The position numbers were made by a program, and so were the translations under genes. Below, in pieces: positions 4,051-32,334 of a stretch of 40,935 bases of DNA. Every line of letters starts with the position of its first letter. The first letter of the stretch is position 1. Source of the DNA: a virus; IMG/VR virus record IMGVR_UViG_3300042147_000001, positions 1-40,935 of that record; one strand, written 5' to 3'. The notes beneath the pieces are model-generated. The model worked only from the letters and a program-made list of their open reading frames with translations, was not told the origin of the DNA and made no database searches.

Positions 4051-4338
4051 ATGTGCTTCTCATCCAAGCCCAAGACTCCAAAGACTGACCCCAACTCCCT
4101 AAAGGCCCCTGAGCCGGTTCTCATTGAGGAACCTAAGGGTGTGGACTTTGGGGCATCCGCTTCTGACCAAAGCACCGCAACTGGTGTCGATGCGACAACC
4201 GTAGAGAAGGACCCAGCGACCGCCGATAAGGGTGATGGTTCTTCGTCTGCAACAGCCACCGATACTGGCACCGTCACGACCACCAAGAAGGCTAAGTCCC
4301 CTTCTGTCAAGCGAGCGATCACAAAGGTCACCGCATGA
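4051..4338 (+). CDS. 6.7: virion protein gp6.7-like
   Basis: A 95-residue protein beginning MCFSxKxKTPKxDxN, the diagnostic N-terminus of T7 gp6.7, a minor virion protein ejected into the cell early in infection. After residue 35 it is low-complexity (Ala, Thr, Ser, Lys, Asp), as expected for a largely disordered ejected protein. AGGAGG at 4034-4039 precedes ATG 4051. The stop overlaps the next start (ATGA at 4335). Confidence 0.88.
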   Translation: MCFSSKPKTPKTDPNSLKAPEPVLIEEPKGVDFGASASDQSTATGVDATTVEKDPATADKGDGSSSATATDTGTVTTTKKAKSPSVKRAITKVTA

Positions 4339-24907: not shown

Positions 24908-25003
24908 CCTAATGGTCTCCCTAATGATACCTCTCTAAGAGGTGTCCTAATGAGATCCTTAGGAGCTGATCACCTCAATGGTTCCCTTAAAGAGGACCTA
25001 ATG
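24908..25003 (+). repeat. CCTAATG short-word array (SRR-like)
   Basis: Exact CCTAATG occurs at 24908, 24920, 24946 and 24997, with a variant CCTCAATG near 24973 and an outlying copy at 24595. Spacing and word resemble the SRR/SRL short repeats that flank T7 terminal repeats. Confidence 0.75.
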
Positions 25004-25387
25004 AGAATCTGATAGAAAAATCTGAGAGACCACCTCTCATAAACAAACCCCGAGGATACCCCCCGTGTACCCCTCTCAGATCCTCTCTAAGGCACCTCAT
25101 CCCCATAATGGCACTGAAAGATTCATCCAGGGATCATGAATGAATCTCATGGGGATCATTATGGGCCCTCATGGTGAGGCTGTCAATAGGGTATCGTTGT
25201 GATCATCGTGAAGGTTTCTCATGGGGATCGTTGAGAAGGTGAGGGAATCTCATTGTGCCTATCTGTCTCTATCTGTATCAACTATTAGAGTCTCTACTCT
25301 AACCTCTAAGGGATCATTGAGGACTCTATAAGGTGACCACTGAGGCTCCCTGGTGAGGGCTGCCCTATAGGACACCTCTGAGGGCTA

Positions 25388-25431
25388 CCTAATGACGCCT
25401 ATAAGGAGCGCTCCTAATGATGACCCTAAGG
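25388..25431 (+). repeat. CCTAATG short-word array (SRL-like)
   Basis: CCTAATG at 25388 and 25413, plus CCCTAAGG near 25424. This second cluster lies just left of the host promoters, where SRL sits in T7. Confidence 0.6.
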
Positions 25432-25522
25432 CCCTGGTAGACCCTGGAGCGTTCTATATGGTGTTCCAGGCTGCTCTATAGCCTCAGTTGAAGGGATTGT
25501 GATTAGTTGGGATAATTAATGG

Positions 25523-25550
25523 TTGACAGTCCATGAGAAGTCTATAAGAT
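25523..25550 (+). promoter_or_regulatory. host sigma70-like early promoter 1
   Basis: Perfect -35 TTGACA at 25523-25528 and a -10 region TATAAGAT at 25543-25550 (16-bp spacing if TAAGAT is used). Right side of the genome-end region, upstream of all early genes. Confidence 0.75.
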
Positions 25551-26031: not shown

Positions 26032-26202
26032 ATGACCAGACAGCAAATGCAATGGGCTGAGCAACACGACTGGTTCGTAAGTGCTGGCGGTATCAAGCAC
26101 AAGCCATTCAGTTGGGTCGTCAAGGTCCGACCATCCTTTGAGGGCGACACTGAGACGGTCTTCAAGGACTATCAGAAACTCCGCAACTGGGCAGGGTACT
26201 AA
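26032..26202 (+). CDS. early protein, unknown function
   Basis: A 56-residue protein (MTRQQMQWAEQHDWFVS at the N-terminus, KDYQKLRNWAGY at the C-terminus), the first early gene after the leader hairpin. Rich in Trp and Gln; no known motif. Two starts are possible: ATG 26032 with AGAGG at 26018-26022, or in-frame GTG 25957 with AGAGGG at 25946-25951, which would add 25 residues (an Arg/Cys/Tyr-rich segment). In T7-like phages the first early gene often blocks host restriction (Ocr), but this protein is not an acidic Ocr-like DNA mimic. No function is assigned. Confidence 0.65.
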   Translation: MTRQQMQWAEQHDWFVSAGGIKHKPFSWVVKVRPSFEGDTETVFKDYQKLRNWAGY

Positions 26203-26204
26203 CC

Positions 26205-26453
26205 ATGAGCCAACGCACACAAGCCCTTCAGGCGGCCTTAGAGGACCTCTCCCAGCGCATCAAGCTGGCAGTGAATGCCCATGAGGCCGCTAAGTCTACC
26301 TTCAGCCGCTTTGAGGGCCCTGCAAGCCATCCCATGTGGCAGACGCTAAGGGACGAGGTAGACAGCACCTTGACACATCAACGGGTCTTACAGGCCCATT
26401 GGCACCGCACCAAAGCGGATCTGTTAGAAGCCCTCAACGCTGATAAGGAATGA
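26205..26453 (+). CDS. early helical protein, unknown function
   Basis: An 82-residue protein starting two bases after the previous stop. The composition (ALQAALEDLSQRIKLAVNAHEAAK, then LTHQRVLQAHW) suggests two long helices, perhaps a coiled coil. Only a weak ribosome site (AGGG at 26193-26196) is visible, so translation may be coupled to the preceding gene. No family recognised. Confidence 0.7.
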   Translation: MSQRTQALQAALEDLSQRIKLAVNAHEAAKSTFSRFEGPASHPMWQTLRDEVDSTLTHQRVLQAHWHRTKADLLEALNADKE

Positions 26454-26458
26454 CGCAC

Positions 26459-26734
26459 ATGAAGCTCTCTGAACTCAATACAGCCGCACTGCAAGCCCTT
26501 TGGCTCTGCGCCAACGCTGAGGAAATCGAGGTGCATCACACCCTGGCTCACTTCTCGGTCGACATCGAGCACCGTGGGTTGGCCTATGCAGTGGGCCGCA
26601 ATGGCAACTGGCAGGGTCCTTACTGGGTCCGTGAGGACTCCACTGGGATCATCTTTCGGGGACCACTGGGTCACATCAAGGAGATGATTAAGCTCTGCTC
26701 TGCTGCTCACCACGAACCACATGCAATCAAATGA
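26459..26734 (+). CDS. early protein, unknown function
   Basis: A 91-residue protein. ATG 26459 is chosen because TAAGGA at 26444-26449 lies nine bases upstream; the in-frame ATG at 26450 would touch that site and overlap the previous stop. The sequence has an HTLAHFSVDIEHRGLAYAVGR middle and a Trp-containing NWQGPYWVRE segment, suggesting a small alpha/beta fold. It is the last gene of the first early cluster; a hairpin module follows. Confidence 0.7.
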   Translation: MKLSELNTAALQALWLCANAEEIEVHHTLAHFSVDIEHRGLAYAVGRNGNWQGPYWVREDSTGIIFRGPLGHIKEMIKLCSAAHHEPHAIK

Positions 26735-26755
26735 GGCCAGTTAGCTGGCGAGGGC

Positions 26756-26800
26756 ATCCACTTATGGGCATCTTAACGGTGTCCCATAGGGGAACAACTC
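26756..26800 (+). repeat. early intergenic hairpin module, copy 1
   Basis: ATCCACTTATGGGC..., stem TATGGG(CA)/(TG)TCCCATA with one bulge, then AGGGGAACAACTC. It shares its flanks (ATCCACT before, ATAGGGGAACAAC after) with copies at 27187 and 27716. A likely RNA-processing (RNase III-type) or translation-control site. Confidence 0.65.
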
Positions 26801-26827
26801 GAAACCAACGCAACCAAGGACATCACT

Positions 26828-27184
26828 ATGCACCCAACATACAAGACCGAAGCGGTAGCCAAGCTGGCCCAAGAGATCAAGGCCGAAGGGTTCCGCGTGT
26901 TCATCGCTCACAGCGGCACCTATGGGTTCTACACGGACCCTGAAGGCTCCCGAGTGACCTCCTTCCAATACGACCTGGGAGGCTTCAAGTTCTCCGGTAA
27001 CTACAAGACGGACCAGCCTCGCACCACGGGCACCGGTTGGGTGGTTCTCAACGGCACCTTCAAGGACATGCACGCCGAGTATCCGCCAGCATGGGCAACC
27101 AGAGGCGCTAAGTGGTCCTTCACGACCCTGGCGCAGCACCTCGCCACCTACCAAGCATCCTCACGCTACACCGAACTGGAGTGA
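26828..27184 (+). CDS. early protein, unknown function
   Basis: A 118-residue protein with AAGGA at 26816-26820 before ATG 26828. The sequence reads as an alternating strand-helix protein (FRVFIAHSGTYGFYTDPEGSR, then FQYDLGGFKFSGNYK), with a helical C-terminus; no enzyme motif or membrane segment. It stands alone between two hairpin modules, so it is probably translated from its own processed mRNA. I recognise no characterised family. Confidence 0.75.
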   Translation: MHPTYKTEAVAKLAQEIKAEGFRVFIAHSGTYGFYTDPEGSRVTSFQYDLGGFKFSGNYKTDQPRTTGTGWVVLNGTFKDMHAEYPPAWATRGAKWSFTTLAQHLATYQASSRYTELE

Positions 27185-27186
27185 CT

Positions 27187-27230
27187 ATCCACTGCTGGGC
27201 CTTCCATTGAGGGCTCATAGGGGAACCATC
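27187..27230 (+). repeat. early intergenic hairpin module, copy 2
   Basis: ATCCACTGC, stem TGGGCC/GGGCTCA around TTCCATTGA, then TAGGGGAACCATC. Related to the modules at 26756 and 27716. Confidence 0.65.
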
Positions 27231-27255
27231 ACCAACCGCATAAAGGAACATCACA

Positions 27256-27690
27256 ATGCAAGCAATCGTCTGTAAGTACCTGCGCCCAACTGACACCAAA
27301 GGGCCTCGCGTCAAGGCTGTCTGCGCCGCTGGCTCGTTCACTGTTGGCTACCATAGCTCCGACCGCTCAGATCCTCACTTGGACGCCGCCGAGGGCCTCT
27401 GTAAGAAACTCGGTTGGGTCTCCGCACCTAACAACCTGTACACCGAGTTGGTCCGTGGTGACCTGCCTAACGGTGACGTAGTGTTCACCTTCATTCCTGA
27501 GGCGTTCCACAAGGCCAAGCAGGCGATCTTTGAGGCTCGCTTAGCCATCTCCAAGGGTGAGAACAACGGCAACCCTCATGGGCGTCCCTGGGGCAAGTCA
27601 ATCACGCAACTGACCGATGACGAAGTGGGTCTCTGGAATGATGAATACGAGACCTTCAAGGCCGTCAACTGGGACCGGGTGAAGCCATGA
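27256..27690 (+). CDS. early protein, unknown function (phage-conserved type)
   Basis: A 144-residue protein with AAAGGA at 27241-27246 before ATG 27256. The N-terminus (MQAIVCKYLxPTxTKGxRVKAxCxAG) resembles small proteins I associate with many unrelated phages (pattern KYL-x-x-T-x-x-x-GxRxKA), whose role is unknown. The middle has LPNGDVVFTFIPEAFHKA and the C-terminus contains a Trp-rich WNDEYETFKAVNWD. No catalytic motif is visible. It lies between hairpin modules 2 and 3. Confidence 0.75.
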   Translation: MQAIVCKYLRPTDTKGPRVKAVCAAGSFTVGYHSSDRSDPHLDAAEGLCKKLGWVSAPNNLYTELVRGDLPNGDVVFTFIPEAFHKAKQAIFEARLAISKGENNGNPHGRPWGKSITQLTDDEVGLWNDEYETFKAVNWDRVKP

Positions 27691-27715
27691 GCTAATCCTC
27701 TGATCAAGTCGAGTG

Positions 27716-27759
27716 ATTCACTGTAGAGCCTTCCTTTGAGGGCTCTATGGGAACAACTC
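27716..27759 (+). repeat. early intergenic hairpin module, copy 3
   Basis: ATTCACTG, perfect 7-bp stem TAGAGCC/GGCTCTA, then TGGGAACAACTC. The best-formed of the three related modules. Confidence 0.7.
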
Positions 27760-27830
27760 ACAGTTAGTTCATCCGCTCTCCTACGCCAGCCACCTAAGGT
27801 TGGTCTATATGAAATGGAAGATCCTTCTCT

Positions 27831-28406
27831 ATGATTCCGCAACGTTACAACCGCACCAACTTCGTAACATCCGCTGTCGCTGTCAAGATTCTGAAGGCAA
27901 TGCAAGGGGCCCTCAAGGATGGCCTTCAGCACTACGTCGAGAACAAGCGTGGGCAACGCTGGCTCCGTGTGTGCATTCAGTCCGTCGATGGCTCTGACAA
28001 CCGTTTCACCTTCAAGTTCCATGCAGGCAACGGGCAAGACGTAGGCCACCTGATCCTACAAGCACTGTTCGTCTGGAGTGACGACCTTGAACGTGAGTTC
28101 TCAGTGCTGATGGGTGAACTTTACCGCTTGACAAATCATCCGTACACCCTTGCACGACGGAAGGTAGCTCAAGAAGTCGTAGAGGCAGCCGATAAGGCAG
28201 CCCGCGAGCACCTCGAATCCATAGGCGTGACCCATGTGTTCCGGTCCCCGAACGGCTTCACCGTGCTCGGTCGATATGCACGCAACTGGCTGGGACGCAA
28301 GGGTTTCCTTGTGGTGGCCGATGAGTTCGGTCGGGCTGTCTCGAAGCAATACCGCCTAACCGCTGAGGCGTATCTCTATGGGTCCTCGAAGGGGATCGCA
28401 GCATGA
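27831..28406 (+). CDS. early protein, unknown function
   Basis: A 191-residue protein, the largest of the early unknowns. ATG 27831 follows GGAAG (27816-27820) at a spacing of about 10. The N-terminal half contains KILKAMQGALKDGLQHYVENK, the centre a helical AQEVVEAADKAAREHLESIGV, and the C-terminus FRSPNGFTVLGRYARNWLGRKGFLVV, which is basic and could bind nucleic acid. No kinase signature is present, so it does not look like T7 gp0.7. Its stop overlaps the next start (ATGA). Confidence 0.75.
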   Translation: MIPQRYNRTNFVTSAVAVKILKAMQGALKDGLQHYVENKRGQRWLRVCIQSVDGSDNRFTFKFHAGNGQDVGHLILQALFVWSDDLEREFSVLMGELYRLTNHPYTLARRKVAQEVVEAADKAAREHLESIGVTHVFRSPNGFTVLGRYARNWLGRKGFLVVADEFGRAVSKQYRLTAEAYLYGSSKGIAA

Positions 28407-28609
28407 GCCTACACACCAACTACCAGCCGTCCCGTAAGGGCCTGATCGACAAACAGATCGAAGACGCAAAGGTCCTCAGGGCTGTCCGCAACCACTTCAA
28501 GAAGGAAGAGTTTGGAGGGATGCATAGCCTGATCGCCAAGATGCAACACCAGCGCCTCCGCTACAGCGATCAGGGCGACTTTACTCGCTGCTACCGGGGA
28601 GGGTTCTGA
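28403..28609 (+). CDS. small basic early protein
   Basis: A 68-residue protein rich in Lys, Arg and His (for example NHFKKEEFGGMHSLIAKMQHQRLRY). It begins at an ATGA overlap with the preceding gene and is followed one base later by the next gene, so these three are one translational unit. No family recognised; the charge suggests nucleic-acid or acidic-protein binding, which is inference only. Confidence 0.7.
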   Translation: MSLHTNYQPSRKGLIDKQIEDAKVLRAVRNHFKKEEFGGMHSLIAKMQHQRLRYSDQGDFTRCYRGGF

Positions 28610-28610
28610 T

Positions 28611-29171
28611 ATGAAGGTTGACTTCCGCAACCGGGTGTATCCAGACCCAATCCTCAAGGCCCTCAAGTTCCGCGCATCGTGGCCTGACCCTGGGTCGTAT
28701 AGGCTCATTAAGGCCCGTGAGGTGATCTTTGAGCTGGGGCTGGGCCCATGCGGTAAGCACGTCCTTGCGCTGGCCTACGAGGTCGATGAGCACCTCTTGA
28801 AGGTGACCCAGACGTCACGCCAACCGGATGACCTGGAGCCTCCTACAGAGGGTCTCAGTGCCATCTACAAGCTTCAGAAGCATGATCTGGCAAGGCGCCT
28901 GGAACGGCCTCTTCGAACTGGGATGAAACCGGGGAAGACGCACACAACAGGGTGGTGGATCTTCAAGTCCACTTGGAGTGAGCCGCCGATGCTCACACTT
29001 GAGCAACCTGAGCCACACCCTGACACCCTGACGATGGCCGAAGTGATCGACCTTCAAGTGATCGAACAGGCCCACAAGAAGGCATATCAGGAATGGCGAG
29101 ATCGCCTCGAAGTTAAGACCTTTGTCTACAAGATGTCCGACGTTCACGGCAGGATCGAAGCTACTCGGTAA
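28611..29171 (+). CDS. early protein, unknown function
   Basis: A 186-residue protein, last of the early block before the RNA polymerase promoter. GGGGAGGG (28598-28605) lies upstream of ATG 28611. Features: a basic N-terminus (MKVDFRNRVYPD), a region REVIFELGLGPCGKHVLALAYEVDEHLL, and a helical C-terminus with LQVIEQAHKKAYQEWRDRLEVK. It has no protein kinase motifs and does not resemble T7 gp0.7. Its place directly before gene 1 makes a host-takeover role likely, but nothing in the sequence defines it. Confidence 0.75.
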   Translation: MKVDFRNRVYPDPILKALKFRASWPDPGSYRLIKAREVIFELGLGPCGKHVLALAYEVDEHLLKVTQTSRQPDDLEPPTEGLSAIYKLQKHDLARRLERPLRTGMKPGKTHTTGWWIFKSTWSEPPMLTLEQPEPHPDTLTMAEVIDLQVIEQAHKKAYQEWRDRLEVKTFVYKMSDVHGRIEATR

Positions 29172-29181
29172 GCAAGAAAGT

Positions 29182-29204
29182 TAAAACCCCTCACTGTTGC
29201 GACA
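29182..29204 (+). promoter_or_regulatory. phage promoter upstream of gene 1 (middle type)
   Basis: TAAAACCCCTCACTGTT with +1 G at 29199 (GCGACA). G at -3, unlike the late promoters. It would let the phage polymerase transcribe its own gene, and it borders AT-rich, origin-like DNA. Confidence 0.93.
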
Positions 29205-29317: not shown

Positions 29318-31999
29318 ATGATTCAGGTAACTCCGCGTCACGACTTCAGCGACATCTCCGAATCATCCTCAGCGTTCAACACTCTCTCCAACCTGTACAC
29401 CCTTGAGCTGGCCGCTGAGCAACTGCGGTTAGAGCACGAGGCTTACACACTGGGTGAAGAACGGTTCCACAAGGCCCTTGAGCGCCAAATGGAACGAGGG
29501 GAGTTCGCACAGAACCGGGTCGCAACCCCACTGATCACCGCCCTGGTCCCGTTGCTCTCTAAGGCAATCTCAGAGTGGATCGAGCACCAGACCACGAAGG
29601 TTCGACGGAAGCACGTTGCCATTGGCGCGTTCCAACAGATGAACCCAGACACGATGGCAGCAATCACCGTCAAGTGGGTCGTGAACATGCTCGCCCTGCG
29701 CCGCACTGGTGGCTCAAGGGAGTCCGCTCCGACCGTCACAGAGATGGCGATCAGCGTAGGCGGTGCCCTTGAAGATGAGGCCCGCTTCGGTCGTATCCGC
29801 TCACTCGAAAAGCAACACTTCGAAAAGCACATTGCCAAGGCTCTGGCCCAGCGCAACGGGATGACCTACAAGAAGGCGTACATGGAGAAGGTCGAGCAGT
29901 CCATGCTTGACAAAGGCGAGCTTCAACAGGAATGGGTCGAGTGGAACATTGCAGATGCTGATGTCCGGTTCCATATGGGCATCCGAATGTTAGAGCTGCT
30001 GATCGAATCGACCCAACTGATTGAGGTCAAGCGCCAGTTTGCCGGTGACAAGAAGGCAGACGGTGAGTATGTCCACATGAAACCTGAGTGGGCCGACAAG
30101 ATCAATGAGCGGGCCTATTCTCTGGCCGGTATCTCACCTCAGTTCCAACCATGTGTCGTCCCGCCGAAACCTTGGAAGGGTCTGCAAGGTGGTGGCTACT
30201 GGGCGAAGGGCCGCAAGCCGGTGACCCTGATCCGCTTAGGGACCAAGAAGGCTGTCAAGCGCTACCGTGACGTGCACATGCCTCAGGTCATTAAGGCGGT
30301 TAACATCGCCCAACAGACCGCATGGAAGGTGAACGAGAAGGTCCTCGAAGTCGCCAATGCGGTGATCCAATGGAAGAACGTTCAGATCAAGGAGTTCCCA
30401 ACAACGGAACGCCAAGAGTTGCCCATTAAGCCGCACGACATCGACACCAACGAGGAAGCCCTCAAGGCGTGGAAGAAGGAAGCCGCTGGGGTTTACCGCA
30501 AGGACTCCGCAAGGGTCTCTCGGCGGTTGGCCTACGAGTTCGCCCTGGAACAAGCCAACAAGTTCAGCGGCTACGATGCGATCTACTTCCCTTACAACCT
30601 CGATTGGCGTGGCCGAGTCTATGCGATCCCTGCATTCAATCCTCAGTCCAACGACATGACGAAGGGGATCTTGCAGGCAGCCCAAGGGGAACCTGTGGGC
30701 GAGGAAGGAATTCAATGGCTCATGATTCACGGGGCCAACACTGCGGGGGTCGATAAGGTCCCCTTTCCAGAACGCAAGCAATGGGTATTGGACAATGAAG
30801 ATCTCATCCTCGGATGCGCTGAAGATCCCCTCAACAACACTTCTTGGATGCAGATGGACTCTCCATTCTGTTTCCTCGCATTCTGCTTTGAATGGGCTGG
30901 GGTCGTTCGGGATGGTGCAAACCATGTGTCCGCACTGCCAATCGCCTTTGATGGTAGCTGCTCTGGCATCCAACACTTCTCTGCGATGCTGCGGGATGAG
31001 CGGGGTGGGCGTGCTGTTAACCTTGTGCCTTCTGAACGAGTTCAAGACATTTACAAGCTGGTCTCTGACGAAGTTGAGGCAGCCTTAAAGGTTCTCTCAG
31101 AAACCGGCACGGACGATTGGACCGAAGTGGTCACCGATGAGAAGACCGGTGAGATCAAGGAGATCCGCAAGCTGGGAACAAAAACCCTCAGTATTGCGTG
31201 GCTGACCTACGGGATGTCCCGAAAGGTTACCAAGCGATCCGTTATGACCCTCGCTTATGGATCGAAAGCCTACGGGTTTGCTGATCAGGTCCGTGAGGAC
31301 ATCGTTAAGAAAGCCATCGACAACGACGAAGGCCACATGTTCACCAGTCCAGGGGAAGCCTCCCGGTTCATGGCGGGCCTCATTTGGGACTCTGTGAGTG
31401 TCGTTGTGGTAGCCGCTGTGGAAGCAATGAACTGGCTGCAACGTGCCGCTAAGCTGCTGGCCGCTGAGGTCAAGTGCAAGAAGACCAAAGAGGTCTTGAA
31501 GCCTGCAATGCCTGTCTACTGGACCACGCCTGATGGTTTCCCGGTTTGGCAGGAGTACACGATTCCCGCGACTCGCCGCGTAGACCTCATGTTCCTCGGG
31601 GACATTCGTCTGCAAGCCACGGTGAACCTTCGCGATGACGGCACCAACAAGATCAACGCTCGGAAGCAAGAGAGCGGGATCAGCCCCAACTTTGTCCACT
31701 CACAGGATGGCAGCCACCTTCGCAAGACAGTGGTCCATGCCTACGAGAACTACGGTGTGACCTTCTTCTGCCTCATTCATGACTCCTTTGGGACCATCCC
31801 AGCGAAAGCCGGGGCGATGTTCAAGGCTGTCCGAGAGACGATGGTTGAGACCTACGAGAACCACAACGTGCTGGCTGACTTCCGTGAGCAGTTCATGGAG
31901 CAACTACACGAGACCCAACTTGAAAAGATGCCTGAGCTTCCTTCCATGGGGACTCTGGACATCCGTGAAATCCTAAAATCTGACTTCGCATTCGCCTAA
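29318..31999 (+). CDS. 1: single-subunit phage RNA polymerase (gp1)
   Basis: An 893-residue T7-type RNA polymerase (T7: 883) that transcribes middle and late genes from the ten phage promoters. Catalytic residues are intact: Asp545 in FDGSCSGIQHFSAML, Lys639 and Tyr647 in TKRSVMTLAYG, and Asp822 in HDSFGTIP; the C-terminus is DFAFA. The specificity loop reads RRVDLMFLGDIRLQATVN, with Asp756 at the place of T7 Asn748; T3 polymerase also has Asp there and prefers C at -11/-10, as in these promoters. The ribosome site before ATG 29318 is weak (AAAGA), so translation may be low or depend on leader folding. A promoter-like sequence lies inside the gene near 31179. Confidence 0.98.
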   Translation: MIQVTPRHDFSDISESSSAFNTLSNLYTLELAAEQLRLEHEAYTLGEERFHKALERQMERGEFAQNRVATPLITALVPLLSKAISEWIEHQTTKVRRKHVAIGAFQQMNPDTMAAITVKWVVNMLALRRTGGSRESAPTVTEMAISVGGALEDEARFGRIRSLEKQHFEKHIAKALAQRNGMTYKKAYMEKVEQSMLDKGELQQEWVEWNIADADVRFHMGIRMLELLIESTQLIEVKRQFAGDKKADGEYVHMKPEWADKINERAYSLAGISPQFQPCVVPPKPWKGLQGGGYWAKGRKPVTLIRLGTKKAVKRYRDVHMPQVIKAVNIAQQTAWKVNEKVLEVANAVIQWKNVQIKEFPTTERQELPIKPHDIDTNEEALKAWKKEAAGVYRKDSARVSRRLAYEFALEQANKFSGYDAIYFPYNLDWRGRVYAIPAFNPQSNDMTKGILQAAQGEPVGEEGIQWLMIHGANTAGVDKVPFPERKQWVLDNEDLILGCAEDPLNNTSWMQMDSPFCFLAFCFEWAGVVRDGANHVSALPIAFDGSCSGIQHFSAMLRDERGGRAVNLVPSERVQDIYKLVSDEVEAALKVLSETGTDDWTEVVTDEKTGEIKEIRKLGTKTLSIAWLTYGMSRKVTKRSVMTLAYGSKAYGFADQVREDIVKKAIDNDEGHMFTSPGEASRFMAGLIWDSVSVVVVAAVEAMNWLQRAAKLLAAEVKCKKTKEVLKPAMPVYWTTPDGFPVWQEYTIPATRRVDLMFLGDIRLQATVNLRDDGTNKINARKQESGISPNFVHSQDGSHLRKTVVHAYENYGVTFFCLIHDSFGTIPAKAGAMFKAVRETMVETYENHNVLADFREQFMEQLHETQLEKMPELPSMGTLDIREILKSDFAFA

Positions 32000-32199: not shown

Positions 32200-32334
32200 A
32201 TGATCGCTAACTTCGAGAAGACCCGTAAGAACGCCCCACGTCGCAACGCTGACGAGATGGAGGCCATTCGGTCCCGCAAGTGCAAGCTCAACAAATCGAA
32301 CCGCCCTCAACGTGCTCAATGGGAGACCCTGTAA
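32200..32334 (+). CDS. 1.1: gp1.1-like small basic protein
   Basis: A 44-residue, strongly basic protein resembling T7 gp1.1 (42 residues): both have NFEK near the start, a central run of basic residues with KxxKLNKxxR, and a Trp near the C-terminus. AAGGAA at 32185-32190 precedes ATG 32200. The position after gene 1 fits. Role unknown in T7; the charge suggests nucleic-acid binding. Confidence 0.7.
   Translation: MIANFEKTRKNAPRRNADEMEAIRSRKCKLNKSNRPQRAQWETL

Follow-up and report, generated by a model that had tools for sequence, protein, structure and literature searches.

A covarying hairpin in the early gene block of a Ghunavirus-like Pseudomonas phage and its place among apparently exchangeable genes

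What holds together a phage early gene block that lacks recognisable T7 counterparts, and what might its genes be for? We addressed this question for positions 26032–29171 of IMG/VR record IMGVR_UViG_3300042147_000001, analysed over its whole length of 40,935 nucleotides (nt; hereafter "the window"). The window covers all or nearly all of a T7-like phage genome, whose first position falls within the late genes, and the phage is a Ghunavirus-like (Autographiviridae) Pseudomonas phage. A first-pass annotation had described a seven-gene block here: its coordinates were right, i.e., 26032 opens an ATG and 29171 is the last base of a stop codon, but the interval comprises eight open reading frames (g1–g8), interspersed with three copies of an RNA hairpin. 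In our preferred reading, to which we assign a probability of about 60%, this is a class I (early) ghunavirus operon in which a genus core is combined with an exchangeable g3–g5 slot, divided by hairpins and carrying host-takeover or counter-defence genes. The components of the block are as follows (aa, amino acids; dN/dS, ratio of non-synonymous to synonymous substitution rates; pI, isoelectric point):

26032–26202, + strand: g1, 56 aa, conserved C-terminal LRNWAGY; relatives in phage Kallioja and in L011/L012; the weakest case
26205–26453, + strand: g2, 82 aa, phrog_16407 (PHROG E-value 9.5e-43), kept in ghunaviruses; dN/dS 0–0.13
26459–26734, + strand: g3, 91 aa, not assigned to a family, shared by some relatives; dN/dS 0.21
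26757–26794, + strand: RNA hairpin copy 1, between g3 and g4; covariance model R1, E-value 2.7e-12
26828–27184, + strand: g4, 118 aa, apparent cassette gene, shared with 95–101-kb Pseudomonas phages at 60–67% identity
27188–27224, + strand: RNA hairpin copy 2, in the g4/g5 gap directly behind the g4 stop; R1 E-value 1.6e-15
27256–27690, + strand: g5, 144 aa, apparent cassette gene with an N-terminal phrog_3199 domain and a ghunavirus-specific C-terminal part; dN/dS 0.20–0.32
27717–27753, + strand: RNA hairpin copy 3, between g5 and g6; R1 E-value 1.1e-15
27831–28406, + strand: g6, 191 aa, phrog_8679, basic (pI 9.8), with a conserved N domain of ~105 aa and an exchangeable C domain
28403–28609, + strand: g7, 68 aa, phrog_19243, overlapping the g6 stop codon; its ends HTNYQPxRKGL and YSDxGDFTRCYRGGF are conserved
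28611–29171, + strand: g8, 186 aa, member of the T3 gp1.05 family (PF25755), carrying extra sequence inserted between residues ~70 and ~165

Each of the three gaps longer than 50 nt among the eight early genes holds a stem-loop with the consensus UUC-a-CUg-x-UGGGCCUUC-loop-GAGGGCCCA-x-uGGGAA, i.e., 15 pairs and one bulged A. Covariance model R1, for which the three window hairpins were among the sequences used in building, gave exactly three strong matches in the window (E ≤ 2.7e-12; next 0.42), all in the long early gaps and on the + strand, and 35 strong matches in relatives, all on the coding (+) strand. Across 22 hairpin copies, 22 cells had changed on both sides of the stem compared to 8.8 in shuffles, a level reached by 0 of 500 shuffles; in a set of 36 copies fitted to the covariance model, double-changed cells numbered 32 vs 12.2 (again 0/500), and slid controls gave at most 9. 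An Rfam search returned nothing for the hairpin, and contigs outside the ghunaviruses retrieved by a pattern search of IMG/VR gave no R1 match better than E 0.05. Overall, we consider the hairpin family real and, judging from Rfam and the open-access literature, apparently undescribed.

Hairpin copies start 3–29 nt past the upstream stop codon, mostly 6–8 nt, and end ~20–70 nt ahead of the next start codon, leaving the ribosome-binding site free. The annotated RNase III sites of T3 lie 0–3 nt past the stop and 20–30 nt ahead of the next start, and the early RNase III sites of T3/T7 (R0.3, R0.5, R1, R1.1, R1.3) are likewise hairpins of similar size behind a stop and near the next early gene. 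Because the hairpins are placed like the annotated T3 sites, RNase III-type processing is most likely the best reading, as a prediction: the hairpin in each long gap would cut the early RNA into separate messages in the manner of the T3/T7 R sites. Without any cleavage, the hairpins could instead stabilise the 5′ end of the downstream gene's message or control its translation, consistent with the distance to the next start and the free ribosome-binding site; however, they sit directly behind the upstream stop, as T3 R sites do, and a 5′ stabiliser normally requires a 5′ end made at that place, and we regard this alternative as unlikely. A role as terminators was rejected, as there is no U-tract.

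The transcriptional context of the block is given by three further features:

25523–25550, + strand: TTGACA-N16-TAAGAT, the likely sigma-70 promoter from which the host would transcribe the early block
29184–29200, + strand: first phage-type promoter ahead of the RNA polymerase gene, AAACCCCTCACTGTTGC, one of 11 consensus matches
29318–31999, + strand: T7-type RNA polymerase gene (context), 58% identity to T7 gp1

Host RNA polymerase would read the block from 25523–25550 as a class I operon. For phage phiPsa17, a TTGACA-N16-TAAGA promoter has been proposed at the matching place (PMC4517105). Phage-type promoters matching the consensus AAAACCCTCACTRTTGC occur 11 times in the window (3736–37800), all on the + strand and with 0.2 expected by chance, and the consensus search found none in the early block upstream of 29184; the gh-1 promoter consensus differs in reading ...TRTGGC. 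The hairpins themselves could be taken for promoters of the phage RNA polymerase, since their left arm, GATTCACTATAGGGCC, is similar to the core of a T7-class promoter, with TCACT and GGG in common, and L013 reads CGATTCACTATAGGG at 2555–2604. Against this, none of the 11 window matches lies at a hairpin, within three mismatches, and both arms covary as RNA, leaving the promoter explanation highly improbable beside that of processing sites.

The genes that the hairpins separate are real. Homologues in other phages were found for all of g1–g8 (for g6, in 131 phage records), and dN/dS relative to these homologues was 0–0.35 for g2–g8 (Nei-Gojobori). Purifying selection is clear for g2–g8 and less certain for g1, for which values of 0.32 and 0.76 were obtained on ~50 codons, with the C-terminal LRNWAGY motif retained. 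The coupling reported earlier for 27831–29171 was confirmed, with g6 and g7 joined by an ATGA overlap at 28403–28406 and g7 and g8 by a 1-nt gap. The same three genes had been singled out as the most gene-like: they do belong to the conserved genus core, but anti-defence candidates are better sought in the variable g4/g5 than in g6–g8.

This variability is best seen against two relatives, L011 and L012, in which g2 (100%), g6 (92–96%) and the polymerase N terminus (97.5%) are identical or nearly identical to those of the window by residue. Homology with these phages stops at 26454, reappears only for 26750–26831, and sets in again at 27711, where hairpin 3 starts; L011/L012 have different genes between g2 and g6, and the common part is an 82-nt island around hairpin 1. 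Homology with L015, L013, and L016 also breaks at or near hairpins, and overall 14 of 21 breakpoints lie ≤20 nt from a hairpin, vs the 19% of the stretch expected. Gene content at g3–g5 varies between close relatives. Because homology between near-identical phages breaks at hairpins, g4/g5-type genes look like exchangeable cassettes, and the core of g2, g6, g7, and g8/1.05 (normally with an oxygenase gene between g6 and g7) would flank an exchangeable slot, g3–g5. Being similar in sequence, the hairpins may double as homology anchors for cassette exchange. A stronger version, i.e., a dedicated system in which similar hairpins divide the early transcript and also provide fixed crossover points, with host-takeover or counter-defence genes exchanged singly without disturbing expression, appears doubtful to us.

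Cassette genes of this type could have counter-defence as their actual function and travel between unrelated phages as anti-defence cassettes. Both g4 and g5 sit in the variable slot, g4 occurs in ghunaviruses and in the 95–101-kb phages listed above, and the N-terminal domain of g5 occurs in phages of Escherichia, Aeromonas, Stenotrophomonas, and Roseobacter; no plasmid homologues of g4 or g5 were found, and none of g4 was confirmed in bacterial genomes. However, neither gene matches a known anti-defence family, the fold comparison is weak, and shared genes could serve other takeover roles. We hold this possibility tentatively, with the balance tilted against it.

A natural experiment bears on the need for the block. 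Phage gh-1, whose leader and polymerase regions are homologous to those of the window, differs in having the early block deleted but for 18 codons of g8. Compared to phiPSA2, gh-1 is 94% identical over 1–879 and 98% identical from 872 on, and 3,220 bp of phiPSA2 are absent, between 8-bp repeat copies CAAGGAGT (871–878 and 4091–4098). The remnant KEFIYKIADIHGRIVTTK corresponds to the last 18 codons of g8, the rest of the early block being gone, and another gh-1 record gives one unbroken alignment across this stretch. Earlier papers noted that gh-1 lacks early genes (PMC4517105, PMC3080317); the available parts of those papers do not describe the repeat-bounded deletion. Since the whole block is deleted, it is dispensable on Pseudomonas putida, the laboratory host of gh-1. 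The 'R1 putative RNase III site' annotated in gh-1 (L075, 845–893) spans the deletion junction and the gp1.05-like gene remnant, and this annotation is therefore probably wrong.

Loss of the whole block, together with its variable content, could also suggest mainly selfish or neutral DNA, with variable reading frames of no benefit to the phage. The dN/dS values of at most 0.35 for g2–g8 and the retention of g2, g6, g7, and g8 across the genus speak against this explanation, which we consider very unlikely. Under the preferred reading of an early operon, the block proteins would act in host takeover or counter-defence and be conditionally needed, and gh-1 could therefore lose all of them.

Exchange is not confined to g3–g5. 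When 25 distinct loci were read from g6 to the polymerase gene, an intact 2-oxoglutarate/Fe(II) (2OG-Fe(II)) oxygenase gene stood behind g6 in 20. The window, L011, and L012 have no such gene, and window g6 runs directly into g7. In PSV6 (L008, 3021–3793) the oxygenase gene is split into two frames, which may be a real phage frameshift or a sequencing artefact; in PMBT23 (L001, 7232–8202) it is cut to the last 54 residues, beside a 268-aa gene resembling Bro-N proteins by eye, and an anti-repressor gene is annotated at the same spot in Laces98 and Dickeya phage BIM BV-99. Given these varied states, the g6/g7 interval is a second exchange point. In addition, Kallioja, Lepni01, L016, and L018 have a short hydrophobic tail in place of the g6 C domain, which suggests domain exchange. 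A hydrophobic, membrane-like tail takes the place of this domain in one branch, comprising L004, L010, L016, L018, L036, L038, L039, and L041–L043. The N and C termini (the latter YSDxGDFTRCYRGGF) of g7 are near-invariant and its middle varies in length, like a putative protein with two fixed binding ends.

Early blocks homologous to that of the window are present in many Pseudomonas phages. The closest named relatives are the Pseudomonas phages PMBT23, HC15b2, and shl2 (~84% DNA identity over 60% of the region), and Kallioja, Mudajogi, phiPSA2, and gh-1, the type phage of the genus, are classified as Ghunavirus, Autographiviridae. The early blocks of phiPSA2, phiPsa17, and vB_PpuP-Kallioja likewise precede the RNA polymerase gene, include homologues of g2, g6, g7, and g8, and come with a similar host promoter and the same hairpins; Kallioja additionally carries g4 and g5. 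Unlike the window, all three keep the oxygenase gene between g6 and g7. Ahead of the early promoter, a gene-poor stretch of the window (24930–25480) contains repeats of the types TCTCATGGGGATCAT and CCTCTAAGG, and is probably the terminal-repeat region.

Are there truly no T7 counterparts, as the first-pass annotation had it? The window was searched for counterparts of every T7 and T3 early protein by tblastn, phmmer, and profile searches (hmmsearch). For g1–g7 the claim stands, as nothing credible was found by sequence or profile, including for Ocr (gp0.3) and the gp0.7 kinase; T7/T3 genes 0.3–0.7 gave no match to any of g1–g8, at a sequence level that a structural mimic would escape. The only T7/T3 early proteins found in the window were gene 1 (58% identity, 29336–31996), T7 1.1 (a weak match at 32203–32325, behind the polymerase gene), and T3 1.05, which lies inside g8. 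There the claim fails: g8 matches Pfam PF25755 (T3 gene 1.05) at E 5e-20 (71.7 bits, cut-off 27), the single real Pfam match in the block, and in reverse T3 gp1.05 is recovered at E 4e-19 by a profile built from g8 relatives. A core xxVxFxLGLGPCGrxV...ITQ and a C-terminal KxFxYK...GRI are common to g8 and to short forms of 84–101 aa, T3 gp1.05 among the likenesses with its GLGPCGK core and KxFxY...GRI element. The difference in length between T3 gp1.05 (90 aa) and g8 (186 aa) is due to ~95 residues inserted in window g8 between its two conserved parts. We conclude that g8 is a gp1.05-family protein. In the window and in ghunaviruses its gene immediately precedes the polymerase gene, whereas T3 gene 1.05 lies downstream, synteny being outside the family definition; in L058, L059, and L061 a gp1.05-family gene immediately follows the polymerase gene, which is the T3 arrangement. 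The record of PSV6 already labels a protein 'gene 1.05 protein', and the phiPsa17 counterpart of g8, VO98_045, is listed in PMC4517105 as hypothetical with no T7 homologue. For phiIBB-PF7A (2011), PMC3080317 reports no similarity to T7 0.3–0.7, and the earlier observation is therefore a known property of the group.

The block had also been proposed as the best place to seek anti-defence or host-takeover genes. The host promoter upstream, the lack of a phage promoter before 29184, the dispensability in gh-1, and the variable g3–g5 agree with this idea, but no specific role is backed by a profile, PDB, or PADLOC match. Of the checks suggested at the time, profile searches yielded the PF25755 match of g8 and, for g2, g6, and g7, only PHROG families of unknown function matched over their length (g5 matched phrog_3199 in its N-terminal half and g8 several families). 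Structure prediction, run for g4 and g6, gave no PDB match below Foldseek E 0.2. By sequence, no block gene matched a known anti-defence family or PDB chain; PDB searches with profiles of g4, g5, g6, and g8 reached a best E of 0.03 with no coherent match. The AlphaFold2 model of g4 (predicted local distance difference test, pLDDT, 92) yielded many UBC/RWD rows at Z 3–5 (best Z 5.0, root-mean-square deviation 4.2–4.3, 84–92 residues) with Foldseek probability ≤0.13, and a UBC/RWD-like fold is a weak lead only. The g6 model (pLDDT 87) comprises an N domain, similar to small phage proteins of 74–82 aa (target TM-score 0.75–0.81), and a C domain, which gave weak Sm/Hfq-like rows (Foldseek probability 0.30–0.38, E > 0.5; Z ~2–2.5). 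Three candidate matches were set aside, namely T7 gp1.2 for g6 (Z 3.3 over 43 residues, taken to be coincidental), T7 gp0.4 for the g4 profile (6 bits in a 15-protein set), and a CDPS match of g2 (E 0.03–0.08, below cut-off). Counter-defence or host-takeover roles, suggested by genomic context, are thus putative.

Several observations weigh against the reading of a hairpin-divided operon of takeover genes. The R1 covariance model gave no match below E 0.06 in T7, T3, or gh-1, and T3 RNase III sites carry an internal loop where the window hairpin has a bulged A and a 1×1 position. Breakpoints naturally fall between genes, so that a role of hairpins as anchors for recombination is confounded with gene borders. 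PADLOC profiles gave no hit to block genes at E up to 0.1, in a library of defence rather than anti-defence families, and gh-1 may compensate elsewhere for the loss of the block.

In kind, this is an ordinary ghunavirus early block, and such blocks without T7 counterparts have already been published for sister phages. What is new is the covarying hairpin in all three long gaps, the homology breaks at hairpins, the repeat-bounded deletion in gh-1, and the absence of the oxygenase gene from the window. On this reading, the genes exchanged by a T7-like phage in fitting itself to a host would stand here cassette by cassette, with their borders marked. As a natural full deletion, gh-1 makes the block genes testable singly, by add-back against Pseudomonas defences, and the hairpin offers a searchable mark for early-gene cassettes in other ghunaviruses.

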